The notes beneath the pieces are model-generated. The model did not search any database and was not told the DNA's origin. It saw only the letters and a program-made list of their open reading frames with translations. A stretch of DNA of 64,000 nucleotides from Roseobacter sp. SK209-2-6 (lineage in GTDB: Bacteria > Pseudomonadota > Alphaproteobacteria > Rhodobacterales > Rhodobacteraceae), in NCBI RefSeq assembly GCF_000169455.1, contig NZ_AAYC01000009.1, forward strand, positions 1 to 64,000, written 5' to 3'. Below are positions 17,257-54,064 of this stretch, piece by piece. A program made the position numbers and the translations under genes. Every line of letters starts with the position of its first letter. Position 1 is the first letter of the stretch.

Positions 17257-17329
17257 GCTCCCGCCGGAACTTGCCCATTCATTGAATGAGCAAAACCCGT
17301 TGGGCCTTGCGCCGTGCAAAGCACGGCGC
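17257..17329 (-). repeat. Dispersed double-hairpin repeat, copy A
   Basis: Read on the - strand it gives a 9-bp hairpin (GCGCCGTGC/GCACGGCGC, 17309-17329), then GGCCCAACGGG, then a second near-perfect stem (17271-17293), then GGCGGGAGC (17257-17265). The same order and the same two single-stranded boxes occur at 40451-40522 and 53991-54064 with different stem sequences. It lies between converging genes. Confidence 0.75.
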
Positions 17330-17466
17330 AGGTGCGTTCCCAAGCAAGGTCTCGCGGATGCTCCCCCCTGGGGGAAGAGCGAGGTCCCACTCAAAGCTGC
17401 CACAAAGACCTCCCTGCCTTAATGCCTCGTTTGAAGCATGACCTCGATCACACCGTTTGCAGGTAA

Positions 17467-19158
17467 CTACCCCATCCAGCGCCGCACAGGGGCGCTGCTT
17501 TCTTCCAGCGCTTGGCAGACCACATCGACCAACGTGGGGCCATCATGGGCCACGGCCTCGCGCATGACGCGGTCGAGGTCCGCAGCGTCTTCTACCCGCC
17601 AGCTTTTGACACCATAGGCCGCTGCGATCTGAGCATGGTCCGTGCGATTGAAATCCACATTGTAATAGCGCGCGTCTTTGTCGGCGAATTGGCTGGCTTT
17701 GATCCAGCCGAAATTTGCGTTGGAAAAAACCACAAAGGTGATCGGCGCTCTGCTGCGACAAACGGTTTCCAGTTCACCCACAGTAAAGCCAAAGGAGCCA
17801 TCGCCCATTAGAGCGACGGTTTTTGAAGCGGGGCGTCCATACCAGGCGCCAAGAGAGGCAGAAAGTGAATACCCAAGGGCCCCATGTGCTCTATTGGTGA
17901 TAAAATACCGGCCTGGCCGCTGCAGTTGATAGTAGGCTGAGAAGTAGGGGCAGCTGGTGCCTGGATCGGACACAATTGTTGCGTCGGGTGGCAGAACCTT
18001 CATCAAGGTGTTGATGACGCGTTCCGGCCGGATTGGGGCCTCATTGCTCTCTGCCAGCATATTGAAACGCTCAAACTTGCGGCTTTTGATATCAGCAATG
18101 GCTTTGGCACCTCCAAAGGTCGCAGCGCCCTGTCCGCGTTTGTCCAGAACTACGTTCACCTCTGCCAGGGCTAGCCGTAGATCACCAACAACCCCCACTT
18201 CCGTACGGTAGTTGGCGCCGATCACCATGGGATCATTGTCAAAATGCACGATGCGGGTGCCGGGGGCGGGTGCCTCCCAGCGAGAGGTTGTGGTGGATCC
18301 GGCGCGGCACCCCATGAAGACGACGAGGTCGGCCGCCTCCATCATTTCCCAGGTTTGGTCGGTGCCGCCATTTGAGCCCACGACGCCAAGGCACTGGGAA
18401 TTGGTTTCAGCCAGAGAGCCCTGACCAGAGATTGACGTCGCAACAGGAATATCGAGGCGGGTTGCGAAGCGGGAGAGTTCTTCCATTGCGCCCGCGATGA
18501 CAACGCCGCCGCCACAAATGATTAGAGGCTTTTTCGCAGAGAGGATGGCATCCAGCGCCTCCTCCGCAGCGCCGGGTTCTGGGGCTTGCGGATATGCCGG
18601 GTAGTTCTGATGCTTGGGGTCGGCCCAGATGTCCGATGGGTCGACCTGGTCATATTGAATGTCATAGGGCAGACCAAGATGGGCAGCTCCAGAGCGCCCG
18701 GTTGTCATCGCCTTGAAGGCTGTGCGGACCATGCGCGGAATATGCTGGGCCTGCTTGATCACCGTGTTCCATTTGGTCAAGGGGCGCATCAGCGCATCCT
18801 GATCCACCTCTGTCAGCGGGTACTTTCCATAGGAAGAAACAGAGATATCCGTTGTAATGCCCAGGACTGCATAGGAGCTCTCTGAGGCTTCGATGAGGCC
18901 TGGAAGAATGTAGGTAGCCCCACCACCCGACGGCCCTTCGGCTACGCCAGGGCGACCGGTCACACGAGAGAACCCATCTGCCATATAGGTGGCGCAACGT
19001 TCATCGCGGGTCAGCACATGGGTGATGTTGTGATCCAGCCGCAGCATGGCGTCATAAAAGGGCAGTGTCGTGTCACCGCAGAGGCCAAAGATATGGCTTA
19101 CGCCATGGGCCTCTAGCATTCGGACCATTGCTTCGGCGCCATTCATCTCGTTGCTCAT
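17467..19158 (-). CDS. Thiamine-diphosphate-dependent enzyme (acetolactate-synthase superfamily)
   Basis: A 563-residue enzyme with the three POX/ALS domains. The N-terminal pyrimidine-binding domain has the activating glutamate region near residue 50. A central domain follows at about 190-330. The C-terminal ThDP domain has GDGSFGF (about 450) followed by an asparagine-containing SNANFGW, the metal-diphosphate motif. It has 2-oxo acid decarboxylase/ligase chemistry, but the normal catabolic family markers I know (Xsc, Ppd, oxalyl-CoA decarboxylase, gluconate-type ALS) do not fit clearly, so the substrate is unknown. It diverges from a GntR regulator with an operator-like palindrome between them. 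Confidence 0.8.
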   Translation of the reverse strand: MSNEMNGAEAMVRMLEAHGVSHIFGLCGDTTLPFYDAMLRLDHNITHVLTRDERCATYMADGFSRVTGRPGVAEGPSGGGATYILPGLIEASESSYAVLGITTDISVSSYGKYPLTEVDQDALMRPLTKWNTVIKQAQHIPRMVRTAFKAMTTGRSGAAHLGLPYDIQYDQVDPSDIWADPKHQNYPAYPQAPEPGAAEEALDAILSAKKPLIICGGGVVIAGAMEELSRFATRLDIPVATSISGQGSLAETNSQCLGVVGSNGGTDQTWEMMEAADLVVFMGCRAGSTTTSRWEAPAPGTRIVHFDNDPMVIGANYRTEVGVVGDLRLALAEVNVVLDKRGQGAATFGGAKAIADIKSRKFERFNMLAESNEAPIRPERVINTLMKVLPPDATIVSDPGTSCPYFSAYYQLQRPGRYFITNRAHGALGYSLSASLGAWYGRPASKTVALMGDGSFGFTVGELETVCRSRAPITFVVFSNANFGWIKASQFADKDARYYNVDFNRTDHAQIAAAYGVKSWRVEDAADLDRVMREAVAHDGPTLVDVVCQALEESSAPVRRWMG

Positions 19159-19224
19159 TGCGTCTCTCCCAGCGGAATGGGGCAGGTAATCGGCTCCAGA
19201 ACAGGGAATCGAAAACTGCGTTCA

Positions 19225-19240
19225 AAATTGTATACAGTTT
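19225..19240. promoter_or_regulatory. GntR-type operator palindrome
   Basis: AAATTGTATACAGTTT is a 16-bp palindrome with one mismatched pair and a perfect TGTATACA core. It resembles the TTGTATACAA-like sites of FCD-type GntR regulators. It lies between the ThDP enzyme and gntR starts and probably serves both. Confidence 0.6.
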
Positions 19241-19318
19241 GGAATTCATTATTGCGGACAAGTCAAGTCTGCTCTACCGTGCCCCCTGAGAATGAGGCAT
19301 CAGGCAGGGCCGGATCAT

Positions 19319-20011
19319 ATGAGCAAACGGGAAAGCAACGTGGATCGGGTCTATGAGGCCCTGCGCCGGATGGCTGCGGATTTTGCCTTTAAGCCCGACC
19401 AGCGGATCAACGAAAGCGCCTTGTCAGAGGTCTTGGGGGCCAGCCGAACGCCATTGCGGGAGGCGCTAAACCGCCTGGTGGCCGAGGGCTTCCTGACTTT
19501 TCAAAGTAACCGGGGTTTCTTCTGCCGACCTCTGACACCCAGCTACATATTGGACCTCTATGAGGCCCGCGTTGCAGTCGAATGCGAAGCCCTGCGACTG
19601 TCATGCCAGCGTGCGAGCGAGGCGGAGATTACGGCACTTTCGGCCTATTTGGAACGAATGGAGCCGGAGTATGAGAGTGCAACCGAGTTGGAAGAGCTCC
19701 TGGCCATGGATGAGAGCTTTCACGCACGCCTGGCGCAGCTTTCCGGCAACAATGAGTTGCAGCGGATCTTGAGAAACCTCAATGGGCGCATTCGCTATAT
19801 TCGCCTCATTGATCTCAAGCGGATGCGGGAAGAGGCGGATGGCCGCGCCCCCGGCGATATCTCGGCGCATCGTCGTGTGCTGGAAGCCTTGGTCAAACGC
19901 GACGCGGATACCGCAGTAGAGGCCCTGCGCAACCATATTGAAAAACGGCGGGAGCAGGCCACAGAAGCCGTGCGCATCGCCTTTTCACAGCTTTATGTGC
20001 CCGAAGACTGA
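19319..20011 (+). CDS. GntR-family regulator, FCD (FadR) subfamily
   Basis: A 230-residue regulator. The winged helix (residues about 6-70) contains INESALSEVLGASRTPLREAL, and an all-helical FCD effector domain follows. The metal-binding residues typical of FCD domains are plausible at DLYEARVAVE, DESFHARL and SAHRRVLEAL. Such proteins repress carboxylate catabolism until the acid binds. ATG 19319 is preferred on family grounds; an upstream ATG at 19292 gives nine more residues and neither has a strong ribosome site. It diverges from the ThDP enzyme and is followed 20 bases later by a small HTH gene. Confidence 0.88.
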   Translation: MSKRESNVDRVYEALRRMAADFAFKPDQRINESALSEVLGASRTPLREALNRLVAEGFLTFQSNRGFFCRPLTPSYILDLYEARVAVECEALRLSCQRASEAEITALSAYLERMEPEYESATELEELLAMDESFHARLAQLSGNNELQRILRNLNGRIRYIRLIDLKRMREEADGRAPGDISAHRRVLEALVKRDADTAVEALRNHIEKRREQATEAVRIAFSQLYVPED

Positions 20012-20031
20012 GGGCAGGTTGGGGGAAATAG

Positions 20032-20361
20032 ATGATTGACTGGACACAGCGAAAGAGAAGCTTGAGGGTGCTTTGTGCATTTAACAATGTTGCGCCTACG
20101 CAAGTTGCCCTCGAATTGGGAATGTCGCCAAATACGCTTACAAAGTTCCTGAATTCAAAATCTGCTCGTGGATTGAATTCAGATAATCTCGGGCTTGTTG
20201 TCAGATACTTTGGTTTGACCGATGCTTCAGACCTGGACACTGACAATCCACTTGGTGATCCCAAGATTGCGCCGCGTAAGATAATTGACGGATTATCGCC
20301 GGATGATGCTTTGGATCTCTGTCGTGAGCTTGAGGCGCGTTTCAAAGAAGAGGAAAAATAG
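20032..20361 (+). CDS. Small XRE/Cro-like DNA-binding protein, AT-rich
   Basis: A 109-residue protein. The segment PTQVALELGMSPNTLTKFLN (residues about 22-41) fits a helix-turn-helix of the Cro/C1 type, followed by an acidic and charged C-terminal tail (LCRELEARFKEEEK). It is clearly more AT-rich than its neighbours, with unlike codon choice, suggesting it was acquired or inserted. It sits between the GntR regulator and the racemase-family gene in the same direction and could be co-transcribed. The target is unknown. Confidence 0.65.
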   Translation: MIDWTQRKRSLRVLCAFNNVAPTQVALELGMSPNTLTKFLNSKSARGLNSDNLGLVVRYFGLTDASDLDTDNPLGDPKIAPRKIIDGLSPDDALDLCRELEARFKEEEK

Positions 20362-20370
20362 GGTCTTATA

Positions 20371-21105
20371 ATGGAACAGGGTGGCAAGACAGTCTTTGGC
20401 GCAGCGGTTGGGATCCTGATGCTGGAAACGCGTTTTCCACGGATCCATGGGGATATGGGAAATGCCATGACCTGGGATTTTCCGGTGCACTACCGAGTTG
20501 TGCGCGGTGCCAATCCTGAAAACGTTGTGCGTGGAAACCCTAGGGAGCTGATCGATCTCTTTGTTGAGGCTGGACGGGATCTGGTAGCAATGGGGGCTGA
20601 TGGTATTACCACCAACTGTGGTTTTCTAGCGCTGATCCAGGAAGAAGTACGCGAGGCATTGGGGGTGCCGGTTGCCACCTCGTCGCTGATGCAGGTGCCC
20701 ATGGTAGAGGCCTTGCTGCCCAAGGGGAAACGCGCGGGTGTGCTAACTATCTCGAAGGAGACACTGACTCCGGCGCATCTGAAGGCCGCCGGAGCGGCGG
20801 TGGATACGCCGGTTGGCGGTACAGATGGTTTGCGCTGCTTCACCCGAGACATCCTGGGCGATGCGCCTGAGATCGATTTTGCGGCCTGCCGCTTGGACAT
20901 GGTTGATGGCGCCAGGGCTCTGGTAGCGGAGAACCCGGATCTGGGCGCCATCGTGCTGGAATGCACAAATATGGTTCCCTATGCGCGCGATGTTCGCCGC
21001 GCCACAGGTCTGCCAGTGTTCTCAATCCAGAGCTTTGTCAGCTGGTTTCAGGCCGGGCTGATGCCACGCCGCTATGAGTTGGATTTGGATGATCCGCGTT
21101 TCTGA
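20371..21105 (+). CDS. Aspartate/glutamate/hydantoin racemase-superfamily protein
   Basis: A 244-residue protein with the two conserved cysteine sites of the superfamily, TTNCGFL (Cys about 90) and LECTNMV (Cys about 197). These provide the proton donor/acceptor pair in Asp/Glu and hydantoin racemases; arylmalonate and maleate-isomerase-type enzymes share the fold. The N-terminal GILMLETRFPRIHGDMGN is characteristic of a poorly described clade. It lies downstream of gntR and the XRE gene, so it may act on the same pathway as the ThDP enzyme. The exact reaction is unknown. Confidence 0.8.
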   Translation: MEQGGKTVFGAAVGILMLETRFPRIHGDMGNAMTWDFPVHYRVVRGANPENVVRGNPRELIDLFVEAGRDLVAMGADGITTNCGFLALIQEEVREALGVPVATSSLMQVPMVEALLPKGKRAGVLTISKETLTPAHLKAAGAAVDTPVGGTDGLRCFTRDILGDAPEIDFAACRLDMVDGARALVAENPDLGAIVLECTNMVPYARDVRRATGLPVFSIQSFVSWFQAGLMPRRYELDLDDPRF

Positions 21106-21108
21106 GGT

Positions 21109-22146
21109 TCAGTCCTGCTCCACCGCGCTGTGCCATTCGCGCAGGAAACGCTGGCGTTTCAGGCGGTCAAGATAGACCATCAGCCCGGGTCCCATCTGGA
21201 TGGGCCGGTAAGGGGCGCTTTCGGCACCGTTGCGTACAGGATAGCGGTGAAAGGGATAGGCAGGATTGCCCTCCGGGCTCCAGGCGGCCTCTAGCAAATG
21301 ATCGACAAGCTCACCTGCGAGCCCGGGTTCCGCCGTGTCCCTCAGGATCACCGCGCTGCGCAGCATCATATTGGTATAGTCCTGCGGCTCCAGGATGAGG
21401 ACCTGCCCCGAAAGATCGCTGCGGGCTTCGGCGTAGCTGCCGAGCACATTATAGGCGAGCGCCAGATCGCCCCGGGCCACATCCTCGATCATCGTGCCCG
21501 AACAGCAATAGAGCCGCAGATCCAGGCTTCCGAAAATCTCCATCATCCGCCAGAACCCGTCCGATGTTCGTGCATCCTGTGTGGCAAAGAGATAGCCCAG
21601 GCCGCTGGCGGCGGCATCATAGGTGCCGATCCGGCCGGAAAACCGCTCCGGGTGGCGCCGCAGCAGGGTGATCAGGTCCTGGCGCCGACGCGGCAGCTCC
21701 AGCCCCTCAAAGGCGCGCGGCGACAGGATCACCGTCGCAGGCTCCTGCGAAAAGCCAAAGACATGATCGCGCCAATTCGCCCAACCGGGCATGGCTTGCG
21801 TGAGGTTCGAGCGGTGCCGGAGGGTATAGCCGTCGTTGGCCAGTTTGACCTGCAGATCCATTGCCGAAGAGATCGCAATGTCAAAGCCGCTGGCATCCGT
21901 GATGACCGCTTGCATCAGGTCGGCGCTGCCGAGTTCATAGTAGTCCAGGGCAGTCTGCGGATGGGTGGCCAGGAAGTCTTCCAGCAAAGGCGCCAGCAGT
22001 GCCGTATCCGTGGTGGAGAGCACCTTCAGTACGGTCTCTGCCTCCAACGGCCCGAACCGGCGCTGGGCCTCGGCTTCAAAGGCTAGCAGTGAAGCCGCCC
22101 AAAGGCTGAGCGCGGTTAGGAGAGTGGGAAGGATAGCGAAACGCAT
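21109..22146 (-). CDS. Periplasmic solute-binding protein in the tctDE operon
   Basis: A 345-residue exported protein with a signal peptide (1-28) and a type II periplasmic-binding fold like the iron(III)/thiamine/phosphonate binding proteins (for example VLSTTDTALLAPLLEDF near 42, then a DYYELGSADLMQAV segment). No ABC permease or ATPase is near. Instead its start overlaps the end of the kinase gene by 31 bases in a regulator-kinase-binding protein operon. It probably works as a periplasmic sensor partner that hands the ligand to the kinase, rather than as a transporter subunit. Confidence 0.8.
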   Translation of the reverse strand: MRFAILPTLLTALSLWAASLLAFEAEAQRRFGPLEAETVLKVLSTTDTALLAPLLEDFLATHPQTALDYYELGSADLMQAVITDASGFDIAISSAMDLQVKLANDGYTLRHRSNLTQAMPGWANWRDHVFGFSQEPATVILSPRAFEGLELPRRRQDLITLLRRHPERFSGRIGTYDAAASGLGYLFATQDARTSDGFWRMMEIFGSLDLRLYCCSGTMIEDVARGDLALAYNVLGSYAEARSDLSGQVLILEPQDYTNMMLRSAVILRDTAEPGLAGELVDHLLEAAWSPEGNPAYPFHRYPVRNGAESAPYRPIQMGPGLMVYLDRLKRQRFLREWHSAVEQD

Positions 22147-23519
22147 GCTCCGGCTCCTGTGCTGGAAGTGGAAAGGACGAGGCGCCCGCCATGGGCTTCG
22201 GCCACTTCGCGGGCGATGGTTAGCCCCAGGCCGGAGCCAATGGTGCCTGCCGCATTGCTGCCGCGGACAAAGCGTTCTGTCAGCGCGTTCTTCTCGGCCT
22301 CCGGGAAGCCCCCGGCCTCATCGGTAACAGCAATGGTCACTGCGGACTGATCCATTGTGACCGAGATGGCGACTTCGCTGTCCGGAGGGGCGTATTTGAT
22401 TGCATTGTCCAGAATATTGCGCAGGGCATTCTGGATCAGGATCGCATCGCCTGGAACCGGCGGAACCGACCCGGCTTCCAGAACCAGAGCAATATCCTTC
22501 AGCTCGGCAACGGGGCGCAACCTGCCTACTAGCTCTTCAGCAAGGGCCTGCAGATCCACTGGCTTACGTTCCAGCGAGTCGGTGCGGAAGGTGACCATGG
22601 CGTGGTCAAGCAGCTGGCCCGCCGCGCGGGAGCTTTCGTCGATGGCGCGGATCATTTCACGCAGGGAGTTGCGGTTCTCGGGCTTTTCCACCCGCCGCAG
22701 GGTGATTTCGGCCTGGGTGCGCACCGTAGCCAGCGGTGTGCGCACCCGGTGCGCGGCCTCGGCGATGAACTCCTCGGACCGGGTGAGGGAAACCCGCAGG
22801 CGTTCGATGAAGCGATTGAGTGAATGCACCAGGGGCAGCATTTCGCTGGGCACCGCGCGCTGCACTGGGCGCAGATCCTTCGGCCCGCGCCGGGAGACCA
22901 CGCCGGTCAGCACCTGCAGCGGGCGGATGCTGGACTGCGCCGTCCAAAGCGCCAGCAGGGCAGCAATGGCAAAGAAACCGCCCCCCAGGGCAAGGGCCGA
23001 GCGGGTGAGGGCGGCCAGCTCCGCCTGCTGGCCCTCGCGGGTCTGGGCGACGGTAATGGCAATTCCTGCGGCACCGCTGTCGAGCGACATGCGGCGGCGC
23101 AGGGTAACGCTGCGTAGTCCGGCGCCCCGGTAGCTGCCAGTCCAATAGCCGGGTTCTTCTAGGCGCGCGCCGGCGGGTGCTTCGGGAAGGTCGCCATAGC
23201 CGGTGAGGGTACTGTCATCCAGGGTCACCCGGTAAAACACCCGGTCATCGCTGATATTGCCAAGCATCGAGAGGGCTGCATAGGGGATATCCAAAGTGAC
23301 CTGGCCTTCCTCAATGGTGACGGAATCCATCAGTGAGGTGGCGGAGGCCAGGAGTATGCTGTCATGGCTGCGCTGCGACACATCGCGGGTGAACCCCAGC
23401 ACCGCAAAAAACAAGAGCGATGCCAGAACCGCGGCGCTGCCGACCAGCTGCAGCGCCAGCCTGCGTCGCAGCGACCCGGAAGAGCGCAGCCGCGCATCTG
23501 GAGTAGGCTGGTCAGTCAT
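22116..23519 (-). CDS. tctE: Sensor histidine kinase (TctE-like)
   Basis: A 467-residue membrane kinase. It has an N-terminal helix (about 25-45), a periplasmic sensor domain to about 165, a second helix (175-193) and a HAMP-like linker. The dimerisation domain has the phosphorylated His257 in EAAHRVRTPL, and the HATPase domain has the N-box NALRNILDNAIKYAPP near 365. The HRVRTPL variant of the H-box is seen in TctE-type kinases. The gene overlaps tctD by four bases (ATGA) and the binding protein gene by 31. It is divergent from tctCBA, which it most likely controls in response to a tricarboxylate or similar acid. Confidence 0.9.
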   Translation of the reverse strand: MTDQPTPDARLRSSGSLRRRLALQLVGSAAVLASLLFFAVLGFTRDVSQRSHDSILLASATSLMDSVTIEEGQVTLDIPYAALSMLGNISDDRVFYRVTLDDSTLTGYGDLPEAPAGARLEEPGYWTGSYRGAGLRSVTLRRRMSLDSGAAGIAITVAQTREGQQAELAALTRSALALGGGFFAIAALLALWTAQSSIRPLQVLTGVVSRRGPKDLRPVQRAVPSEMLPLVHSLNRFIERLRVSLTRSEEFIAEAAHRVRTPLATVRTQAEITLRRVEKPENRNSLREMIRAIDESSRAAGQLLDHAMVTFRTDSLERKPVDLQALAEELVGRLRPVAELKDIALVLEAGSVPPVPGDAILIQNALRNILDNAIKYAPPDSEVAISVTMDQSAVTIAVTDEAGGFPEAEKNALTERFVRGSNAAGTIGSGLGLTIAREVAEAHGGRLVLSTSSTGAGACVSLSFPLS

Positions 23520-24181: not shown

Positions 24182-24217
24182 TGATTGTTCTCTTTCACTG
24201 AGGGGCAGGACAGAGCG

Positions 24218-24233
24218 TGACAGGTTTGTGTCA
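24218..24233. promoter_or_regulatory. Inverted repeat in the tctD/tctC intergenic region
   Basis: TGACA-N6-TGTCA lies between the divergent starts of tctD (24181) and tctC (24299). It is a candidate site for TctD dimers. Only the repeat is seen; binding is inferred. Confidence 0.4.
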
Positions 24234-24298
24234 GCTTGGCGTGCTCCCTTTCAGTCATGAGCGGGCAAACCGCTAAATGTCAAATGGAGGAGAGAGAC

Positions 24299-25889: not shown

Positions 25890-27407
25890 ATGCTGGAAGG
25901 ACTTCTGATCGGCCTTTCAACGGCCTTTTCCCTCACAAATATCCTGATGGTCATTGGCGGTTGCCTCATCGGGACCTTCATCGGCATGCTGCCAGGCCTG
26001 GGCCCGATGTCGATCATCGCCATCATGATCCCGGTGGCCATTTCGCTGGGCGACCCATCGGCGGCGCTGATCCTATTGGCCGGGGTCTATTACGGTGCCA
26101 TCTTTGGCGGTTCGACCTCTTCGATCCTGCTGAACGCCCCCGGAGTGGCGGGCACCGTGGCCTCGTCATTTGACGGCTACCCGATGGCGCGGGCGGGCAA
26201 GGCGGGCAAGGCGCTGACCATCGCCGCCATCGCCTCCTTTGCGGGGGGCACCATCGGCGCGCTTTTGCTGATGGTCTTTGCCCCGGCGCTCTCTTCGGTG
26301 GCGCTGCTGTTTCATTCGGCTGAGTATTTTGCCCTGATGGTGGTGGGCCTCTCGGCCATTGCCGCCTTTGCCGGTACCGGCCAGGTTGCGAAGGCCATTC
26401 TGATGACCCTCTTGGGGCTGATCATGGCCACCGTGGGCGAGGGCGCCCTCTTTAACATGCCGCGCTTCACCATGGGGGTGATGGATCTGCAATCAGGTTT
26501 CAGCTTCATCACCCTGGCCATGGCGATGTTTGCCCTGCCTGAGGCGCTGTTTTTAGTGATGAATCCGCCCAAGGCAGGCGGGAATTCCGGGGAGGGCAAG
26601 ATCAAGGATCTGCGCATTTCCCGCGCCGAGGCCAGACAAATCGCGCCGGTCATCGGGAGGCAATCGCTGCAGGGGTTCTTCATCGGGGTCTTGCCCGGAG
26701 CAGGGGCCACCATTGCCTCCTTCCTGGGCTATGCGGTGGAACGCAATCTTTCCACCAAGGAGGAACAGGCCGAGTTCGGCAAGGGCTCGGTCAAGGGCTT
26801 GGCCGCGCCGGAGACGGCAAACAATGCCGCCTGCACCGGCTCCTTTGTGCCGCTGCTGACCCTGGGCATTCCTGGCTCGGGCACCACGGCGATCCTGCTC
26901 GGCGCACTGGTGGCACTGAATGTGACGCCGGGGCCGCGGCTCATGATCGATGAGCCGCAGATCTTCTGGGCGGTGATCATCTCAATGTATATCGGGAATC
27001 TGATCCTCCTGGTGCTGAACCTGCCGCTGATCCCCTACATAGCCAAGGTGCTGGAGGTGCCGCGCAACTACCTGATCCCCTTCATCCTGTTTTTCACCCT
27101 GATGGGGGCTTACATTGGCCAGAACAACGCAACCGAGTTGCTCATTCTGGTGGGTTTTGGCTTCTGCGCCACGCTTTTGCGCTTTGCGGATTACCCGTTG
27201 GCGCCCTTGCTGATCGGCTTCATTCTGGGCTCGATGCTCGAAGACAATTTTGCCCGCTCGATGCAGCTCTATGACGGGCTCGGTTTCCTTTTGGAGCGAC
27301 CAATGACGCTTGCCCTACTGGTGCTGGCGGCGATCCTGGTTGTGCTGCCCAGCTACCGTGCACGGCGCGCCAGGGCCAAGGCGGATGGGGTGGCCGAAGG
27401 GGACTAA
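25890..27407 (+). CDS. tctA: Tripartite tricarboxylate transporter large permease (TctA)
   Basis: A 505-residue, roughly twelve-helix permease. It has the TctA motifs GTFIGMLPGLGPM near 28-40 and YYGAIFGGSTSSILLN near 70-85, and a second glycine-rich repeat around GVLPGAGATIASF (268-280), reflecting the internal duplication. It carries carboxylates with a proton or sodium gradient. It is the last gene of tctCBA and is followed by tandem GC-rich hairpins. Confidence 0.95.
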   Translation: MLEGLLIGLSTAFSLTNILMVIGGCLIGTFIGMLPGLGPMSIIAIMIPVAISLGDPSAALILLAGVYYGAIFGGSTSSILLNAPGVAGTVASSFDGYPMARAGKAGKALTIAAIASFAGGTIGALLLMVFAPALSSVALLFHSAEYFALMVVGLSAIAAFAGTGQVAKAILMTLLGLIMATVGEGALFNMPRFTMGVMDLQSGFSFITLAMAMFALPEALFLVMNPPKAGGNSGEGKIKDLRISRAEARQIAPVIGRQSLQGFFIGVLPGAGATIASFLGYAVERNLSTKEEQAEFGKGSVKGLAAPETANNAACTGSFVPLLTLGIPGSGTTAILLGALVALNVTPGPRLMIDEPQIFWAVIISMYIGNLILLVLNLPLIPYIAKVLEVPRNYLIPFILFFTLMGAYIGQNNATELLILVGFGFCATLLRFADYPLAPLLIGFILGSMLEDNFARSMQLYDGLGFLLERPMTLALLVLAAILVVLPSYRARRARAKADGVAEGD

Positions 27408-40450: not shown

Positions 40451-40522
40451 GCGCGCGCCACGCATGCGGCGTCCGGCCCAACTGGAGAGGATCCCGTCAG
40501 GGATCCATCGACAGGCGGGAGC
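40451..40522 (+). repeat. Dispersed double-hairpin repeat, copy B
   Basis: The order is a GC-rich imperfect hairpin (CGCC 40456-40459 with GGCG 40468-40471), GGCCCAACTGG (40475-40485), a perfect 7-bp hairpin GGATCCC-GTCA-GGGATCC (40489-40506) and GGCGGGAGC (40514-40522). It is the same architecture as copies A and C, again between converging genes. Confidence 0.75.
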
Positions 40523-40536: not shown

Positions 40537-41016
40537 TCAGCCTTCAGGTGTGGCATGGATCGCAAACTGTTCCAGCCCGGCAGGGGCCGCATCAATTTTG
40601 CGATAGCTCTCGCGCACTCCGGTTTCGCTCAACTCGCGCGCAACAGTCAGCAGTGTGTTGGTGTCATGGTCGGCACAGATCTCTGCCATCTGCCGAAGTT
40701 CTTCTTTGGCGACAGGGCGTGCCGCTTCCAGATTCGGAGCGCCATAGGCTTCAACAAAATGCTGCGCCAAACGATCACAGAGCGCATCATACTCGGCGGT
40801 TTCGATTTGTGTCACCGCAACAAAAGTTACGCGCCCTGCGGTTTCCAGCCCGAGCCAACCATTGGCAAAGGCCTGACGCGGTTTGCCAGTCAGGTCCGCT
40901 TCGATCCAATTGGAAAACTCAAAGCCTCCGGAAATGCACCACTCACCGGTTCGGGCAGGGCTGGAATAGACGTTTTGATCGCTCTCGTCGAAATGAATAG
41001 CACGCGCAAGCTGCAT
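40537..41016 (-). CDS. DUF6505-type conserved protein
   Basis: A 159-residue cytoplasmic protein without signal or membrane helices. I recognise it as the conserved hypothetical found next to the DUF4444 ligase and mrp in Rhodobacteraceae (DUF6505). Visible features are an aromatic N-terminal half and a helical, acidic C-terminal half. Its ATG overlaps the stop of the ligase gene (TAATG), so the three genes mrp-ligase-DUF6505 are translationally coupled. The function is unknown. Confidence 0.7.
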   Translation of the reverse strand: MQLARAIHFDESDQNVYSSPARTGEWCISGGFEFSNWIEADLTGKPRQAFANGWLGLETAGRVTFVAVTQIETAEYDALCDRLAQHFVEAYGAPNLEAARPVAKEELRQMAEICADHDTNTLLTVARELSETGVRESYRKIDAAPAGLEQFAIHATPEG

Positions 41017-46494: not shown

Positions 46495-46508
46495 AGGAGG
46501 AACGCAAT

Positions 46509-47120: not shown

Positions 47121-47205
47121 TCCGCAAAAGGGCCGTCGCTGCAATGCGTGGCCATAACCCGTGCAACTGGAGCCCGGAGGAAACACGCCGGGGGGAGGAG
47201 TTCAC

Positions 47206-47394: not shown

Positions 47395-47511
47395 GAGCCG
47401 CGCGCATATCCCTTTCATACCCGCCCGCAACCGGTAGCGAATGGCCCATCTGTGTGGCGGATTTTCTTTCACCCAGCCTGTCCCTGAATGGGGCTAGCAA
47501 GGGAGGTTTAC

Positions 47512-50406
47512 ATGCTTAGGAAAAAGACCAACGGGGTTGCGAGACGCCCCCAGCGGACCGGCATCCTGAATACAGCGGCGGGCACTTCCGTCGATCGACG
47601 CGCGTTTCTGCGCGGCTCTGGTCTAGCCATTGGTGGCTTGGCGGCAATCAGCGCCACCGGAGGTGCGGTAACACAGGCCAATGCAGCCGGCGCTGCGGCT
47701 GGCGCTGTCGAAAGCGTCAAGTCCATCTGCACCCATTGTTCTGTTGGCTGCACCGTTGTCGCCGAGGTGCAGGATGGTGTCTGGACCGGCCAAGAACCCG
47801 GTTGGGACAGTCCGTTCAACCTTGGAGCTCATTGTGCCAAAGGGGCCTCGGTTCGTGAGCACGCCCATGGCGAACGCCGCCTGAAATACCCGATGAAGAA
47901 AGAAGGAGGAGAGTGGAAGCGCATCTCCTGGGATCAGGCGATTGACGAAATCGGCGGTGGCATGATGCAGATCCGCGATGAAAGCGGACCTGATAGCGTT
48001 TATTGGCTGGGCTCAGCCAAGCACAACAACGAACAGGCCTATCTGTTCCGCAAATTTGCTGCCTACTGGGGCACCAATAACGTGGACCACCAGGCGCGGA
48101 TTTGTCATTCCACCACTGTGGCGGGTGTAGCCAATACATGGGGTTACGGCGCCATGACCAATAGCTACAACGACATCCACAACTCCAAAGCCATTTTCAT
48201 CATCGGCGGCAACCCGGCCGAGGCGCATCCGGTGTCTCTGTTGCATGTGTTGAAGGCCAAGGAGCAGAACAATGCTCCGCTCATCGTTTGTGACCCGCGC
48301 TTTACCCGCACGGCGGCCCACGCGGATGAATATGTCCGCTTCCGTCCCGGCACCGATGTGGCGCTGGTCTGGGGCCTGCTCTGGCATATCTTTGAAAACG
48401 GCTGGGAAGATAAAGAGTTCATCCGCACCCGTGTCTGGGGCATGGAGCAAATCCGTGACGAAGTGGCGAAATGGACACCTGACGAGGTGGAGCGTGTCAC
48501 CGGAACACCCGGAAGCCAGCTGCGCCGTGTGGCCCGGACCCTGGCCAACAACCGCCCTGGCACCGTGATCTGGTGCATGGGGGGAACTCAGCACACCACG
48601 GGCAATAACAATACTCGAGCCTACTGCATCCTTCAGCTTGCGCTGGGCAATATGGGCACCTCCGGTGGTGGTACCAATATCTTCCGGGGCCATGACAATG
48701 TGCAGGGGGCGACCGACCTTGGCGTTCTGTCTCATACCCTGCCGGGCTACTATGGCCTGTCAAAGGGGGCCTGGGGCCATTGGGCCCGTGTTTGGGGGGA
48801 AGAGCCTGAATGGCTGGCTGGTCAATTCGACAAGATCACCGGGGCTGACGGCAAGGAAAAGAGCCTGCAGAACCTCAAAGGTATTCCGGTCAGTCGCTGG
48901 ATCGACGGCATCCTCGAAGATGCAGGCAACATGGATCAGCCTAACAATGTGCGAGCCATGGTCCTCTGGGGACATGCGCCCAACTCGCAGACTCGGATGA
49001 CGGAAATGAAAACCGCGATGGAGAAACTGGATATGCTGGTCGTGATTGACCCCTATCCAACGGTTTCTTCGGTTCTTCATGATCGCACTGACGGGGTCTA
49101 TCTGCTGCCTGCCTGTACTCAGTTTGAAACGCGTGGCTCCGTCACCGCATCGAACCGATCACTGCAATGGCGCGACCGCATCGTTGAACCCCTGTTCGAA
49201 AGCCTGCCGGATGAGGTCATCATGGCCAAATTCGCCAATAAGTTTGGCTGGGCAGATCGCTTGTTCCGTAATATCGAGATGGAAGATGCTGAAACGCCAA
49301 ATGTGGAGAGCATCACCCGCGAGTTGAACAAGGGTCTTTGGACCATTGGTTATACTGGTCAAAGCCCGGAGCGGCTGAAACTGCATATGGCCAACCAGCA
49401 TACCTTTGACCGCACCACGTTGCGCGCCAATGGTGGCCCGGCGGATGGCGATTATTATGGTTTGCCTTGGCCTTGCTGGGGCACCCCGGAGATGAAGCAC
49501 CCAGGCACGCCCAACCTCTATGATATGTCCAAGCCGGTTTCAGAAGGTGGCTTGACCTTCCGCGCCCGCTTCGGAGTTGAGCGGGATGGCGATAACCTAT
49601 TGGCAGAAGGGGTTTATTCCGCAGGGTCTGAGATCCAGGATGGCTATCCTGAGTTCACCATGCAGATGCTTATGGACCTTGGCTGGGATGGTGATCTGAC
49701 CGAGGAGGAACGTGCCTCAATCGAGGCTGTGGCCGGTCCAAAGACCAATTGGAAGACCGATCTCTCCGGTGGCATCCAGCGGGTGGCGATCAAGCATGAA
49801 TGCGCACCCTTCGGCAATGCCAAAGCGCGGGCGGTGGTCTGGACCTTCCCGGATCCAGTACCGATCCACCGTGAACCGCTTTACACCAACCGCCGCGATC
49901 TGGTGGAGGACTACCCGACCTATGAGGACCGGCATGATTACCGCCTGCCAACCCTCTATGCCTCGATTCAGAAAAAGGATGTCTCCAAGGATTATCCGAT
50001 CATCCTCACCTCTGGGCGACTGGTTGAATATGAGGGCGGTGGCGAAGAGACCCGCTCCAACCCATGGTTGGCAGAGCTGCAGCAAGACATGTTTGTCGAG
50101 ATCAACACCCGCGATGCAAATGATCTGGGTGTGCGTGATGGCGAACAGGTCTGGGTCGAGGGGCCAGAGGGCGGCAAGGTCAAAGTCATGGCCATGGTCA
50201 CCGAGCGCGTGGGAGCTGGCGTTGCCTTTATGCCCTTCCACTTTGGTGGCCACTTCCAGGGCAAGGACCTGCGGGACAAATACCCCGAAGGGGCCGACCC
50301 CTATGTTCTGGGCGAAAGCGCCAATGTGGCTTTCACCTATGGCTATGACAGCGTGACTCAAATGCAAGAGAGCAAATGTACGCTCTGCAAAATCAGTGCA
50401 GCATAA
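47512..50406 (+). CDS. fdhA: Formate dehydrogenase catalytic subunit (Mo/W-bis-MGD), Tat-exported
   Basis: A 964-residue molybdopterin oxidoreductase oxidising formate to CO2. A Tat signal (DRRAFLRGSG, arginines 29-30) sends it to the periplasm. The [4Fe-4S] ligands are Cys73, Cys76, Cys80 and Cys108. The active-site pair is Cys198-His199 in ARICHSTTVAG, where E. coli enzymes have selenocysteine, so this is a cysteine enzyme. ATG 47512 follows GGGAGG; the frame allows 47488. fdhB and the cytochrome b gene follow. Confidence 0.95.
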   Translation: MLRKKTNGVARRPQRTGILNTAAGTSVDRRAFLRGSGLAIGGLAAISATGGAVTQANAAGAAAGAVESVKSICTHCSVGCTVVAEVQDGVWTGQEPGWDSPFNLGAHCAKGASVREHAHGERRLKYPMKKEGGEWKRISWDQAIDEIGGGMMQIRDESGPDSVYWLGSAKHNNEQAYLFRKFAAYWGTNNVDHQARICHSTTVAGVANTWGYGAMTNSYNDIHNSKAIFIIGGNPAEAHPVSLLHVLKAKEQNNAPLIVCDPRFTRTAAHADEYVRFRPGTDVALVWGLLWHIFENGWEDKEFIRTRVWGMEQIRDEVAKWTPDEVERVTGTPGSQLRRVARTLANNRPGTVIWCMGGTQHTTGNNNTRAYCILQLALGNMGTSGGGTNIFRGHDNVQGATDLGVLSHTLPGYYGLSKGAWGHWARVWGEEPEWLAGQFDKITGADGKEKSLQNLKGIPVSRWIDGILEDAGNMDQPNNVRAMVLWGHAPNSQTRMTEMKTAMEKLDMLVVIDPYPTVSSVLHDRTDGVYLLPACTQFETRGSVTASNRSLQWRDRIVEPLFESLPDEVIMAKFANKFGWADRLFRNIEMEDAETPNVESITRELNKGLWTIGYTGQSPERLKLHMANQHTFDRTTLRANGGPADGDYYGLPWPCWGTPEMKHPGTPNLYDMSKPVSEGGLTFRARFGVERDGDNLLAEGVYSAGSEIQDGYPEFTMQMLMDLGWDGDLTEEERASIEAVAGPKTNWKTDLSGGIQRVAIKHECAPFGNAKARAVVWTFPDPVPIHREPLYTNRRDLVEDYPTYEDRHDYRLPTLYASIQKKDVSKDYPIILTSGRLVEYEGGGEETRSNPWLAELQQDMFVEINTRDANDLGVRDGEQVWVEGPEGGKVKVMAMVTERVGAGVAFMPFHFGGHFQGKDLRDKYPEGADPYVLGESANVAFTYGYDSVTQMQESKCTLCKISAA

Positions 50407-50419
50407 GGAGTAAAGAGAA

Positions 50420-51013
50420 ATGGCAAGAGCAAAATTCCTCTGCGACGCCGAACGCTGCATTGAATGCAACGCCTGCGTTACTGCTTGTAAGAACGAGCAT
50501 GAGGTCCCCTGGGGCATCAACCGTCGCCGTGTTGTCACCATCAACGATGGCAAACCGGGAGAGCGTTCGATCTCAGTCGCCTGCATGCATTGTTCTGATG
50601 CGCCCTGCATGGCGGTCTGCCCGGTCGACTGTTTCTATCAAAATGAAGAGGGTGTGGTCCTCCACTCCAAGGATCTCTGCATTGGTTGCGGCTACTGTTT
50701 CTACGCCTGTCCCTTTGGCGCGCCTCAGTTCCCGCAGGCGGGCAATTTTGGTAGCCGTGGCAAAATGGACAAATGTACCTTCTGCGCCGGTGGCCCGGAG
50801 GAGAATAACTCCAATGCGGAATTCTCCAAATATGGCCGCAACCGGATTGCAGAGGGCAAACTGCCCATCTGTGCGGAAATGTGCTCAACCAAAGCACTCT
50901 TGGCTGGTGATGGCGACATGGTTTCTGCGGTCTACCGCGAACGTGTCGTTGCGCGTGGCTTTGGCTCGGGTGCCTGGGGCTGGGGAACAGCCTATGATCA
51001 GAAAGGTGGCTGA
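50420..51013 (+). CDS. fdhB: Formate dehydrogenase iron-sulfur subunit (beta)
   Basis: A 197-residue protein with four [4Fe-4S] motif sets: CIECNACVTACK (12-23), CMHCSDAPCMAVCP (about 55-68), CIGCGYCFYACP (about 87-98), and CTFC (about 119-122) joined with CAEMC near 150. It passes electrons from FdhA to the membrane cytochrome b. It has no Tat signal of its own and is probably carried out with FdhA. It lies 13 bases after fdhA. Confidence 0.94.
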   Translation: MARAKFLCDAERCIECNACVTACKNEHEVPWGINRRRVVTINDGKPGERSISVACMHCSDAPCMAVCPVDCFYQNEEGVVLHSKDLCIGCGYCFYACPFGAPQFPQAGNFGSRGKMDKCTFCAGGPEENNSNAEFSKYGRNRIAEGKLPICAEMCSTKALLAGDGDMVSAVYRERVVARGFGSGAWGWGTAYDQKGG

Positions 51014-51123
51014 CCCGCATGGGGCGTGAGCCCCGATGGTTCAGCACTCAGGGGCGGCACAGATTTGCTCTGCGCCGCCCCGAACTCAACAATTCACGCG
51101 CGATCTGAAGAGGAGGCCGGTCC

Positions 51124-52350
51124 ATGCCACGCCTTGCGCTTTCATTGTTCCTTTTTCTGCTTTGCTCCATGGTCCTGCCGTCTATCAGCTCGGCACAGGA
51201 TCAGGGCATGGCGACAGGTGCCCTGACATCTGACCGCAGTCACACCGGAGGGGCACAAACACTTGAAGACATCCTCGCGCGTCAACGAGGTCTGGCCATT
51301 GATGACAGCTTTCGCGCGGGCAATACCGGCAACCCAGAGGGGGCTGCAGCACTGAATGCGCAGCTGGGAACCCTGGGCGGGGTTTCTGATCCGGAACTGT
51401 GGCGTGCTCTTAGATATGGATCGGCTGATATGCGGGCCTCCGCAGGAGGAGAGACCGCAGCGGTTCTGGTACAGGACGGCGGAATGCGCTGGCTAGACTT
51501 TCGCGCAGGCCCCCTGCGCCAATATGGCGGCGGGTTGCTGCTGGCAACACTGGGAGTGCTGGCGCTGTTCTTCCTGCTGCGTGGACGGATCATGATCGAT
51601 GGTGAGAAATCCGGGCAAACAGTGACCCGTTTCAAGGCGATTGAACGCTTTGGTCATTGGTTGCTTGCGGGCTCCTTTATCGTGCTGGGTGTGACCGGCA
51701 TATTGACCCTGTTTGGTCGTGTGATGATTGCACCTTACCTGGGCAAAAGCACCAATGCCTGGCTTTTGGTTTGGGGGAAGTGGCTGCATAACTCTGTTGC
51801 TTGGGCCTTTATTCTTGGGCTGGTGATGATTTTTGCCATGTGGGTTGTTCACAACGTTCCCAACCGCAGTGATCTTGTCTGGCTCCGGCAGTTTGGCGGG
51901 ATCATTGGCAAGGCGCATCCACCGGCAAAAAAATTTAACGCGGGCCAAAAGATGATCTTTTGGTCGGTGGTCTTGTTTGGCAGCTCGATTTCCCTCACCG
52001 GGATCTCTCTACTTTTCCCCTTTGAAATGCCGCTTTTTGCTGCCAGTTTTGACGCGTTGAATGCCACCGGGTTGCCCCAGATGCTGGGCTATGGCGCTCT
52101 GCCTGTTGAGTTGGCCCCGCAAGAAGAGATGCAGTTGGCGCAGGCCTGGCACGCGATCCTTGCCTTTGTCCTCATGGCGATCATCCTAGCGCATATCTAC
52201 ATCGGCTCCTTGGGAATGGAGGGGGCCTATGATGCGATGGGTTCCGGCGAAGTGGATGAGGCCTGGGCGCGTCAGCACCACTCGATCTGGCTCGAGGAGC
52301 TGAAAACACCTCCGCAGGGGGAGACCAAAGCCCAGACCCCGGCGGAATAG
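51124..52350 (+). CDS. fdhC: Formate dehydrogenase cytochrome b subunit (gamma)
   Basis: A 408-residue membrane protein. A signal peptide (1-25), a periplasmic N-terminal stretch (about 25-135) and a first helix near 138-157 come before the four-helix cytochrome b core (about 175-375). That core has heme-ligand histidines in ERFGHWLLAG, KWLHNSVAW, QAWHAILAFV and LAHIYIG. It passes electrons from the Fe-S subunit to quinone. The N-terminal periplasmic extension is normal for the alphaproteobacterial family. Confidence 0.9.
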   Translation: MPRLALSLFLFLLCSMVLPSISSAQDQGMATGALTSDRSHTGGAQTLEDILARQRGLAIDDSFRAGNTGNPEGAAALNAQLGTLGGVSDPELWRALRYGSADMRASAGGETAAVLVQDGGMRWLDFRAGPLRQYGGGLLLATLGVLALFFLLRGRIMIDGEKSGQTVTRFKAIERFGHWLLAGSFIVLGVTGILTLFGRVMIAPYLGKSTNAWLLVWGKWLHNSVAWAFILGLVMIFAMWVVHNVPNRSDLVWLRQFGGIIGKAHPPAKKFNAGQKMIFWSVVLFGSSISLTGISLLFPFEMPLFAASFDALNATGLPQMLGYGALPVELAPQEEMQLAQAWHAILAFVLMAIILAHIYIGSLGMEGAYDAMGSGEVDEAWARQHHSIWLEELKTPPQGETKAQTPAE

Positions 52351-52408
52351 GTTTTGTCGTTTTTTGAAGGCTGGGGTTGCAGTTATAGGCAAAAGGGAGA
52401 CATATGAA

Positions 52409-52534
52409 ATGAAAGCAATGATTTCTGGGCTACTGGCGACAGCCGTGATTGCTGTTCTCGCCGACCTGACCCTGGAAAATGCGGGATATGGAAGCGACGA
52501 GATCTTTGCCAGCGAGGCGGTTCGGCTGAAATGA
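52409..52534 (+). CDS. 41-residue membrane peptide coupled to the response regulator gene
   Basis: A very short reading frame of 41 codons from ATG 52409 to TGA 52532-52534. Residues 4-22 (MISGLLATAVIAVLADLTL) form one hydrophobic helix, followed by an acidic, polar tail (ENAGYGSDEIFASEAVRLK). An AAAAGGGAGA ribosome site lies at 52390-52399. The stop overlaps the ATG of the response regulator gene by four bases (ATGA), which argues for real translation and coupling. It lies 58 bases after the cytochrome b subunit gene. The function is unknown; a small membrane regulator or enzyme accessory peptide is possible. Confidence 0.65.
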   Translation: MKAMISGLLATAVIAVLADLTLENAGYGSDEIFASEAVRLK

Positions 52535-53922
52535 CACTGACCGCGATCAGGAACGAGAGGCAGGGGAGCATGGTGGCCGCCGCTGCAACCAGCGATGAAT
52601 ATGGTGAGAACCTGGCAGGGGCATCAATTCTGGTGATTGATGATGAGCCGGGTATGCGCAATTTCCTGACCAAAATTCTGGCACCAAGATGCAAAAGGGT
52701 GGAGCAGGCGGCTTCCGCTGCAGAGGCTTCCGCAATTTTGGACCAATCCCATTTCGATCTGATTATTCTGGACAATATCATGCCGGGAAAGACTGGTCTG
52801 GAATGGGTAAAAGAACAGCGTCGGGTGGGGCTCTTTGCTGATACCATCTTGGTCACGGCCTATGCTGATCTTGAGACTGCCATTCTGGCCCTACGTACGG
52901 GGGTTGCGGATTTTGTGCTAAAACCCTTCCGGGCAAATCAAATTCTGAATTCTGTCGCCCGGGCCCTTGATCGCAAGTATCTGCGCCGCGAGAATTATTT
53001 GCTGAAACACGAACTGTCTGCCGAGGGGCGCCTTGCACGTGGGCGGTTACTGGGGAAATCCCCCTCGATCTGCCAGGCACGCGAGATGCTGACACGGCTT
53101 GCGCCACTTCCCACTCCTGTTCTTTTCACTGGGGCCAGTGGAACAGGTAAGGAAATTGCGGCCCGGACCCTCCATTCCCAGTCGGACCGGGCGGATAAGC
53201 CTTTTGTCGCGGTGAACTGTGCCGCGATCTCGCCGGACCGTATTGCCGAAGAGCTCTTTGGGAGAATTGATGCGCAGAACCGGCGTCAGGATGGTCTGTT
53301 CCTGCACGCCGATGGCGGCACCCTGTTTCTGGATGAAGTGGCGCAGATGCCTGAGCAGGTGCAGGCGGCCCTACTTCGGGTGTTGGAAGATCAACGTGTA
53401 CGGCCGATTGGAGCGGAGCGTGAAATCCCGCTGAACCTGCGCGTTCTCTTTGCGACCAATGCCAATCTGGAAGAGGCTGTGGCAGAGGGACGTTTTCGCG
53501 CGGATCTCTACCATCGTATCAATGTGGTTGAAATCCAGATGCCTCCGCTGCGGGAGCGCATCGAGGATATTGTTGAACTGGCCTCTCTCTTTATGGAGCA
53601 GTTTTCGACCTCCCTTGGAATGCCAGCCTTGGCCTTGAATGAAGAAACGCTTCTGAAGTTTTCTCGCTATGATTGGCCCGGAAATGTGCGCGAGCTGCGC
53701 AATTTGATTGAGCGATCTGTGATCCTGGGAGAGTTCCCAGATGAGTTCTCTGGCGAGGGGCAGGTGACCGGGATTGCCGCCGTGGAATCGCTGGATCTGG
53801 TGACCCAACGCCATATTATGCATGTCTTGGATGATTGTGGTGGCAACCGTGCGGAAGCCGCCCGTCGCCTGGGTGTGTCGCGTAAGACCATTGACCGAAA
53901 ATGCGCTGGTTGGGGGCTCTGA
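52531..53922 (+). CDS. NtrC-family response regulator lacking the GAFTGA loop
   Basis: A 463-residue regulator with a receiver domain (Asp81 in IILDN, switch Lys131), an AAA+ domain (Walker A GASGTGKE 201-208; Walker B LFLDE 265-269) and a Fis-type HTH (about 430-460, NRAEAARRLGVSRKTIDR). The segment between ELFG (241-244) and DGGTLFLDE has no GAFTGA loop, so contact with sigma-54 RNA polymerase is unlikely. It may act through sigma-70, as HupR or Rhodobacter NtrC do. It is coupled to the 41-residue peptide and follows the fdh genes. Confidence 0.88.
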   Translation: MTLTAIRNERQGSMVAAAATSDEYGENLAGASILVIDDEPGMRNFLTKILAPRCKRVEQAASAAEASAILDQSHFDLIILDNIMPGKTGLEWVKEQRRVGLFADTILVTAYADLETAILALRTGVADFVLKPFRANQILNSVARALDRKYLRRENYLLKHELSAEGRLARGRLLGKSPSICQAREMLTRLAPLPTPVLFTGASGTGKEIAARTLHSQSDRADKPFVAVNCAAISPDRIAEELFGRIDAQNRRQDGLFLHADGGTLFLDEVAQMPEQVQAALLRVLEDQRVRPIGAEREIPLNLRVLFATNANLEEAVAEGRFRADLYHRINVVEIQMPPLRERIEDIVELASLFMEQFSTSLGMPALALNEETLLKFSRYDWPGNVRELRNLIERSVILGEFPDEFSGEGQVTGIAAVESLDLVTQRHIMHVLDDCGGNRAEAARRLGVSRKTIDRKCAGWGL

Positions 53923-53990
53923 GGCTTCTGGCAAAGCTGTGAAGCTGAAATGGTTTCCCAAACAAAGAGCGTTAAGTACTACATCAGTGC

Positions 53991-54064
53991 AGCGCCGCGC
54001 GTAGCGCGGCGCTAGGCCCAACGGGCGAGGGGCAATCTTTGATTGTCCCGAAACGGGCGGGAGC
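53991..54064 (+). repeat. Dispersed double-hairpin repeat, copy C
   Basis: A perfect 10-bp hairpin (AGCGCCGCGC/GCGCGGCGCT, 53991-54013) is followed by AGGCCCAACGGG (54014-54025), a second 9-bp stem (GGGGCAATC 54029-54037 with GATTGTCCC 54041-54049, one wobble) and GGGCGGGAGC (54055-54064). It shares the architecture and boxes of copies A and B and lies between the converging regulator and kinase genes. Confidence 0.8.

Follow-up and report, generated by a model that had tools for sequence, protein, structure and literature searches.

The 64,000-nucleotide stretch of Roseobacter sp. SK209-2-6 DNA analysed here (contig NZ_AAYC01000009.1, positions 1 to 64,000; hereafter the window, always at its full length) contains three copies of a dispersed element in which two hairpins alternate with two nearly fixed boxes. 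The conserved fold and placement of this element suggest an unrecognized one-way boundary element or structured-DNA site. Our preferred interpretation, put forward tentatively and with rather less than even confidence, is that it is a dispersed palindrome akin to the repetitive extragenic palindromes (REPs) that selection retains, after its placement, as a one-way boundary at the 3′ ends of genes. The gene that is read towards an element from its 3′ side is called the facing gene throughout.

The fold is kept by compensated, two-sided change. Counted on an 84-row alignment made without structure, hairpin 2 alone shows two-sided change in 210 cells, where shuffled alignments give 72.4 ± 6.5 and slid versions 51–101; its covariation score is 0.480 (shuffled 0.149 ± 0.013, slid 0.068–0.125). 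Hairpins 1 and 2 together give 279 two-sided cells against 84.6 ± 7.1 and a score of 0.346 against 0.110 ± 0.007; the rows were drawn from 192 copies whose hairpin 1 stem has 7 pairs or more, so that the hairpin 1 counts lean to pairing, and the pairing of hairpin 2 played no part in choosing them. The 16 copies found by pattern alone show 37 two-sided cells against 13.0 ± 2.8 (score 0.377 against 0.164 ± 0.021), on a structure derived from these same 16 sequences, and the hairpin 2 stem reaches 6 pairs or more in 117 of 150 pattern-found copies but in only 67 of 750 shuffles. The original prediction that pairing persists while the stems change had been illustrated by comparing paralogues; the test at a single orthologous site comes from the site behind the LysR-type regulator gene that faces copy 1 (the LysR site), which covaries on its own, with 17 two-sided cells against 4.3 ± 1.6 in shuffles. 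Pairing therefore survives stem change beyond shuffled expectation in the family, in hairpin 2 alone and at this one site. With the further copies found in relatives (below), the original interpretation came through both refutation tests that had been set for it.

Hairpin 2 is a single long, imperfect hairpin; hairpin 1 in many copies comes close to a perfect palindrome. In 277 of 293 pooled copies CCCAA and GCGGGA stand in register, and one or both of these words are absent in 14; counts on the 277 copies required both words, so their invariance there and in the 84-row alignment is by construction. The boxes had been described as single-stranded, which needs amending: the CCC of the first box and the GGG of the second are predicted to pair and close hairpin 2, and bases in the first box covary with bases adjoining the second, so the boxes are not purely single-stranded. 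Since the CCC/GGG pairs do not vary, covariation cannot test them. Numbered inwards from the AA/GC internal loop in the 277 copies, position 1 has 225 C-G and 41 G-C pairs, which defines two element types, CCCAAC (type I) and CCCAAG; position 2 has G.G in 189 copies and true pairs in 65 (CG 28, TA 14, AT 13, GC 10); position 3 is GC in 208, CG in 30, GT in 18 and AT in 11; and positions 4 and 5 have G.A in 154 copies, A.G in 120 and true pairs in 39 % and 37 %, respectively.

The better-folding strand is antisense to the facing gene. With stem parsing that treated both strands alike, hairpin 2 on the reported strand carries 107 G.T against 32 A.C wobbles in 212 parsed copies, and 65 against 24 in 143 copies found with a strand-neutral pattern. 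Tetraloops read GNNA in 79 cases against 2 of the reverse, UNNC, and the stability of hairpin 2 favours the reported strand in 239 of 277 copies with RNA parameters and in 263 of 277 with DNA parameters. By gene context the G.T:A.C counts are 105:19 (convergent), 27:7 (−−), 14:13 (++), 2:2 (−+) and 12:3 (other), that is, 132:26 where a facing gene is known against 14:13 in ++ (Fisher P=0.0006). That the element might be the facing gene's own sense 3′ hairpin was considered and rejected: its position fitted, but the tests of strand favour the opposite one.

Placement also follows the facing gene. The 293 pooled copies divide into 170 in convergent gaps, 50 in −− contexts (facing gene only), 33 in ++ and 10 in divergent −+ contexts, with 5 inside genes and 25 for which one neighbour is unknown; a restriction to convergent gaps, as first proposed, thus describes most copies but not the −−, ++ and −+ ones. 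A facing gene is present for 233 of the 293, and a sense gene lies on the 5′ side of 211. Among 223 copies with both a facing gene and a parsed hairpin 2, the distance to the facing stop codon is 1–4 nt in 7, 5–40 nt in 129, 41–120 nt in 55 and greater in 32, which places 136 within 40 nt; copies at this range fall 60/45/31 over the three reading-frame phases. Where a convergent gap leaves 150 nt or more outside the element, 34 single copies lie closer to the facing stop and 12 closer to the opposite one. On six annotated plasmids, whose annotation is genuine but incomplete, 13 of 14 hits have a facing gene, 11 of the 14 lie within 47 nt of its stop and two at 124 and 141 nt; the single hit with no facing gene is TM1040 144645–144734. 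Inverted pairs with their 3′ ends outward recur; some share one hairpin 1, and some have one copy behind each of two convergent genes. One pair (L017) points inward. Separately, long pairs of about 310 bases (L041 1265–1581, L042 1262–1582, L144 28–336 and L081 491–793) have, by eye, similar inner hairpins (GGGCAG-TCTGCCC and TCAAGG-CCTTGA) and a CTTTTCTTTTGCTGAGA-like stretch between the copies, and look as if they formed a larger composite element.

The three window copies were found where the original prediction had put them, and their parts read back as hairpin 1, GGCCCAAC, hairpin 2 and GGCGGGAGC. Bit scores below are from model R2, a covariance model built from 84 copies; the hairpins are predicted folds.

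17257..17332, − strand: copy 1 (hairpin 1, GGCCCAA box, hairpin 2, GCGGGAGC box), from the pattern, model R2 (61.7 bits) and fold
17308..17330, − strand: copy 1, hairpin 1
17260..17304, − strand: copy 1, hairpin 2 including its predicted CCC/GGG base, from the fold and family pair counts
16319..17224, + strand: LysR-type regulator gene (gene call) facing copy 1, stop codon 32 nt from the element
40451..40522, + strand: copy 2, from the pattern, model R2 (52.3 bits) and fold
40451..40474, + strand: copy 2, hairpin 1, imperfect
40477..40519, + strand: copy 2, hairpin 2 including its predicted CCC/GGG base
40537..41016, − strand: DUF6505 protein gene (gene call) facing copy 2, stop codon 14 nt from the element
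53991..54064, + strand: copy 3, from the pattern, model R2 (82.3 bits, not independent, as copy 3 is one of the 84 sequences that built the model) and fold
53991..54013, + strand: copy 3, hairpin 1
54017..54061, + strand: copy 3, hairpin 2 including its predicted CCC/GGG base
54148..56142, − strand: sensor histidine kinase gene (gene call) facing copy 3, stop codon 83 nt from the element

Gene calls on both sides agree that all three lie in convergent gaps, as had been claimed, the neighbours being the LysR and thiamine pyrophosphate (TPP) enzyme genes for copy 1, hexapeptide transferase and DUF6505 genes for copy 2, and sigma54 response regulator and histidine kinase genes for copy 3. A strict pattern, GGCCCAACNGG-N18-45-GGCGGGAGC, has 17 matches genome-wide and none when reversed. 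On its stated strand copy 1 folds better than all of 200 shuffles, and copies 2 and 3 better than all but one (z −6.7, −3.0 and −3.4); the opposite strands fold too, with z of −5.4, −2.1 and −2.5. A terminator scan that covered copy 3 found no terminator-like site there. At several LysR-site loci (L199 and L203–L206), short degenerate units like GCCGAACGGGC(A/G)GAGCC recur, by eye, upstream of the element in the same intergenic space.

Further copies in relatives had been anticipated, and covariance-model searches find the family across the genus and in 33 genera of the family Rhodobacteraceae. Model R1, built from 16 pattern-found copies, gives at least 46–53 matches in the window's genome (53 at E up to 0.5), at least 36–88 per genome in 12 genomes of the genus, and, when 12 other genera of the family were searched, at least 48, 45 and 4 in three of them; it gives none in the remaining nine or in 16 genomes from other families. 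These large searches scored 116, 150 or 23 candidates per genome, which makes the copy numbers lower bounds. With model R2 the element is present in 33 of 199 family genomes (one genome per genus, at most 23 candidates scored in each), and its distribution across the family is patchy. A collection of 245 matches came down to 223 distinct ones. A pattern scan of named genomes matched at least 117 stretches, in Phaeobacter, Leisingera, Ruegeria, Tropicibacter, Epibacterium, Tritonibacter, Mangrovicoccus, Tropicimonas, Seohaeicola and others, and in some genomes of other groups; when 15 of the other-group loci were rescored with R2, L112 alone gave E below 0.1. L112, L170 and L171, on contigs titled Nocardioides marinus DP1N28-1, carry the element (R1 scores of 38–65 bits); this points to a record that is mislabelled or mixed and includes Rhodobacteraceae DNA. 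Viral contigs gave 11 pattern matches, of which one (L333, ending at the contig edge) reaches E 0.01 with R2, and a blastn search of phages with one full pair gave no match.

Copies persist, and the family can multiply as well. At the LysR site the element is on the same side and strand in all 11 genus genomes that bear the gene, the window's own included. The one whole-genome comparison made, with the relative G009, used 47 of the 53 own matches (the 6 weakest dropped) and 61 of the 62 of G009; 29 of the 47 own copies are matched there by a counterpart that agrees in gene, side and orientation. Counterparts are 0.73 identical in the element and 0.46–0.47 in the flanks (shuffled flanks 0.375), the box words being kept while the flanks diverge, and 28 parsed pairs contain 24 pairing-keeping two-sided changes at six inner positions, against 12.7 ± 2.6 in 500 shuffles (maximum 21). 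In another genome, G016, 16 of 21 viewed copies (chosen for equal length) average 94.6 % identity, so the family can multiply recently. The notion of a mobile element is accordingly half sustained: dispersal is backed by the G016 burst and the patchy distribution, but 29 of 47 copies sit at kept sites in that single comparison. Since the sequence upstream of the G016 copies is partly common to another dispersed motif, the 5′ end of the unit is uncertain. A second dispersed motif, GGAGTATTT-N3-10-(A)AGA(T/G)GAA, lies in the window at about 62429–62455 on the − strand, in sense orientation shortly behind a TAG, apparently a gene stop; it has 21 matches in 19 of 323 sources and stands directly 5′ of most of the amplified G016 copies.

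There was no Rfam match at gathering score at the elements of the window or at 15 further loci, and an E-value search with copy 1 gave only three weak microRNA hits far under the gathering scores. Away from the element, window positions 26931–27058 (− strand) match Cis8_sRNA (Ruegeria cis8) at 79.8 bits. The search for earlier descriptions, which took in open PMC text but not subscription papers, figures or supplements, found none of the element among the entries listed.

High copy number, extragenic palindromes behind genes and inverted pairs are all features of REPs in general, and the nearest known kind is the CGTC REP super-family of Alphaproteobacteria, of which we would regard the element as a variant and not a member. 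According to the main text of the paper describing them, CGTC REPs are dispersed extragenic palindromes, mostly downstream of genes in convergent or tandem gaps and often in inverted pairs; they have no dedicated transposase and are stated to occur in all orders of Alphaproteobacteria (PMC3733652). That main text does not name Rhodobacter, Roseobacter, Ruegeria or Silicibacter, its species lists being in figures. The REPs it describes are single hairpins of 20–40 bp, with a terminal CGTC tag and a CCA-like tail in the CGTC type (PMC3733652). The element shares their place, inverted pairs and absence of a dedicated transposase, but it is about 80 nt long with two hairpins, GGCCCAA and GCGGGAGC boxes, untagged ends and covarying arms; CGTC or GACG occurs in 123 of 277 copies, though within the foot of hairpin 2, and an unpaired CGTC tag on a single 8–9 bp hairpin was not found. 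Because of these differences in size, tag and two-hairpin plan it is not filed as a member. GTAG REPs, with the bacterial interspersed mosaic elements (BIMEs) and REP-associated tyrosine transposases (RAYTs), are likewise dispersed hairpins with inverted pairs at convergent gene ends, yet GTAG or CTAC is found in only 3 of 277 parsed hairpin 2 segments, and the element shows no general tie to Y1 transposase genes. Bidirectional terminators between convergent genes resemble the element in place and possible effect, but it lacks a U-tract and forms a family with common boxes. The Rhodobacterales motif HRC-8-4, as far as its published text describes it, is also a structured hairpin motif confined to that order, but consists of one terminator-like stem followed by a U run, occurs mainly at cco operons and is not dispersed (PMC8632094).

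In the boundary interpretation that we tentatively prefer, the strand running towards the facing gene would become single-stranded as nascent convergent or antisense RNA, which is our first choice for the folded molecule. The folded nascent RNA would end or block that traffic and so keep transcription from entering the gene from behind, RNA polymerase perhaps being stopped through Rho, a hairpin-binding protein or RNA 3′-end trimming, one of which would be needed as there is no U-tract. A boundary against traffic from behind is indicated by the antisense folded strand, its tie to the facing stop, the lack of wobble bias in ++ contexts and the enrichment in convergent gaps; where a convergent gap holds two copies, the gene pair would be guarded from both sides.

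Several observations weigh against this interpretation, the missing U-tract and the DNA-type loops being its weak points. By base counts, the last box is followed by a C-rich pyrimidine tract of about 7 bases and by no U-tract, so that an ordinary intrinsic terminator, one of the first ideas about the element, is not supported; the loop types, set out below, lean to DNA, though RNA is still compatible with them. No facing gene is found for 45 of 293 copies (33 ++, 10 −+ and 2 with the left gene unknown), and for 62 of 293 the gene upstream lies on the opposite strand (50 −−, 10 −+ and 2 with the right gene unknown), so that no convergent mRNA is evident there. In shorter convergent gaps (under 150 nt) the preference is not seen, 25 single copies lying closer to the facing stop and 37 to the opposite one, and all these contexts, except those of the 14 plasmid hits, come from our own gene caller. 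Hairpin 1 has no G.T excess (26 G.T, 25 A.C). As to persistence, 18 of the 47 own copies lack a counterpart among the 61 of G009 (either the gene or the element alone may be missing), and at the site by the histidine kinase gene scored copies oriented like copy 3 are absent from all eleven relatives; four have one in the opposite orientation, the best two of these lying 38–39 nt behind the stop of the other gene. Finally, the copies were gathered with a model that rewards pairing and many are kin by descent, so that the P-values overstate the case.

It is possible, if somewhat unlikely, that the antisense strand folds not as RNA but as single-stranded DNA (ssDNA) recognized by a DNA-processing enzyme (a recombinase, transposase or hairpin nuclease), by analogy with attC sites or the REP/IS200 systems; placement near stop codons would then reflect insertion preference, and replication orientation the handling of folded DNA. 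The loops speak for it. GNNA accounts for 115 of the 194 tetraloops in a larger set, its third base being a pyrimidine in 82 and a purine in 33, while UNCG, a common stable RNA loop, is absent from all 194; hairpin 1 triloops are GNA in 49 cases against TNC in 8. Other hairpins in the same DNA have GNNA in only 11 of 148 (P=4e-25 for the difference), the contrast in pyrimidine share (82:33 against 4:7) being less sure (P=0.036), and the 93 tetraloops of the pattern-found subset include 34 GNYA, 19 GNRA and 2 UNNC. The text of two papers describes d(cGNNAg) tetraloops and d(GNA) triloops as stable DNA loops (PMC8373063, PMC6479982); the available energy parameters give GNNA and GNA loops no special standing. 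The triloops of hairpin 2, on the other hand, have no strand bias (GNA 22, TNC 20).

Replication orientation is a second line of evidence. The folded strand lies mostly on the leading-strand template: it coincides with the G-rich strand for only 30 of the 108 single copies in three genus genomes (9/36, 12/38 and 9/34), where 51–57 % of coding bases are on the G-rich strand, and in 10 of 28 in two other genera (4/15 and 6/13). Strand switches were inferred from base skew at twenty samples per chromosome. The genus counts cover the best-scoring chromosomal copies listed (60, 48 and 38 of 84, 77 and 52 matches), those from the other genera only copies listed in the 199-genome survey, and, as best-scoring copies alone were used and orthologues are not independent, the pooled P of 1.7e-6 is too small. 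A bias of this kind would equally fit the guarding of genes on the leading strand, and in G095, one of the two genera outside the genus, it is lacking (6/13). The larger chromosomal-integron arrays are also reported to have the folded strand on the leading-strand template (PMC5371416), and in this the element resembles them.

Comparison with attC sites themselves is mixed. Type I copies begin GCCCAAC, which fits the attC 5′ box RYYYAAC. attC sites resemble the element in lying just behind a stop codon. The consensus of their 3′ box is GTTRRRY, whereas the 3′ box of the element is GCGGGAG; the base after CCCAA is G in at least 41 of 277 copies, and the element is dispersed and not arrayed, so that the second R box and the arrays find no match. 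A folded bottom strand is common to the element, attC and the attC-like motif OTH-22-1 (PMC8632094), but attC-like recombination would leave the stable sites unexplained. No integron integrase scored over the cut-off in any of 20 genomes, the weaker hits found in all 20 being matched by hits in 13 of 14 control genomes, and an integrase as driver was rejected. The sole transposase type sought, Y1 (RAYT), is absent from the 11 other genus genomes and present in 3 of 13 other carriers; one partial match in the window's own genome (G000:C29:444709–444825, profile 84–121 of 121) is the only one in 12 genus genomes. A RAYT/Y1 transposase as general driver was likewise rejected, as it is missing from most carriers.

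The recent G016 burst and the patchy spread also suit such a DNA site, but the 29 of 47 copies kept in place with compensated changes would be needless for a purely selfish element. The two views might be combined in a genome-wide, strand-specific family of ssDNA hairpins unlike attC or REPs, read by a putative enzyme, marking the 3′ borders of genes with a preference in fork orientation, spread in bursts and afterwards retained by the host as a barrier to transcription arriving from behind; this fuller picture we consider doubtful.

We think it improbable that the two hairpins act as a stabilizer in the 3′ untranslated region of the mRNA of the 5′-side gene, blocking 3′–5′ exonucleases. The strand that folds is sense for that gene, which is present in 211 of 293 copies, copies in short convergent gaps lie nearer its stop (37 against 25), and stabilization of mRNA is a hypothesis put forward for REPs (PMC3733652); in larger gaps, however, position tracks the facing stop (34 against 12), the upstream neighbour is on the other strand in 62 of 293, and the G.T excess is absent in ++ contexts even though a sense gene is present. 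A small or antisense RNA gene, with the element forming the structured 5′ portion of a transcript antisense to the 3′ end of the facing gene, would agree in strand and position but is very improbable, given the lack of any Rfam match at the elements of the window and the 15 loci and of a promoter-like consensus in base counts upstream. Lack of any function, with template-switch correction of imperfect palindromes keeping the arms complementary while the copies otherwise decay neutrally, would suit the near-perfect hairpin 1 palindromes but is scarcely credible in view of the box words kept at orthologous sites while flanks diverge, the strand asymmetry of loops and wobble pairs and the tie to facing stop codons.

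REP-like repeats are often regarded as selfish or incidental, but here dozens per genome keep a two-hairpin fold through compensated change, and many of them stay at fixed sites. From the strand that folds, the tie to the facing stop and the replication bias follow opposed, testable predictions for RNA and for ssDNA. If the boundary interpretation is true, the element would be a natural system for keeping convergent genes from transcribing into one another; if it is DNA that folds, the element would point to a novel hairpin-handling enzyme in these abundant marine bacteria.

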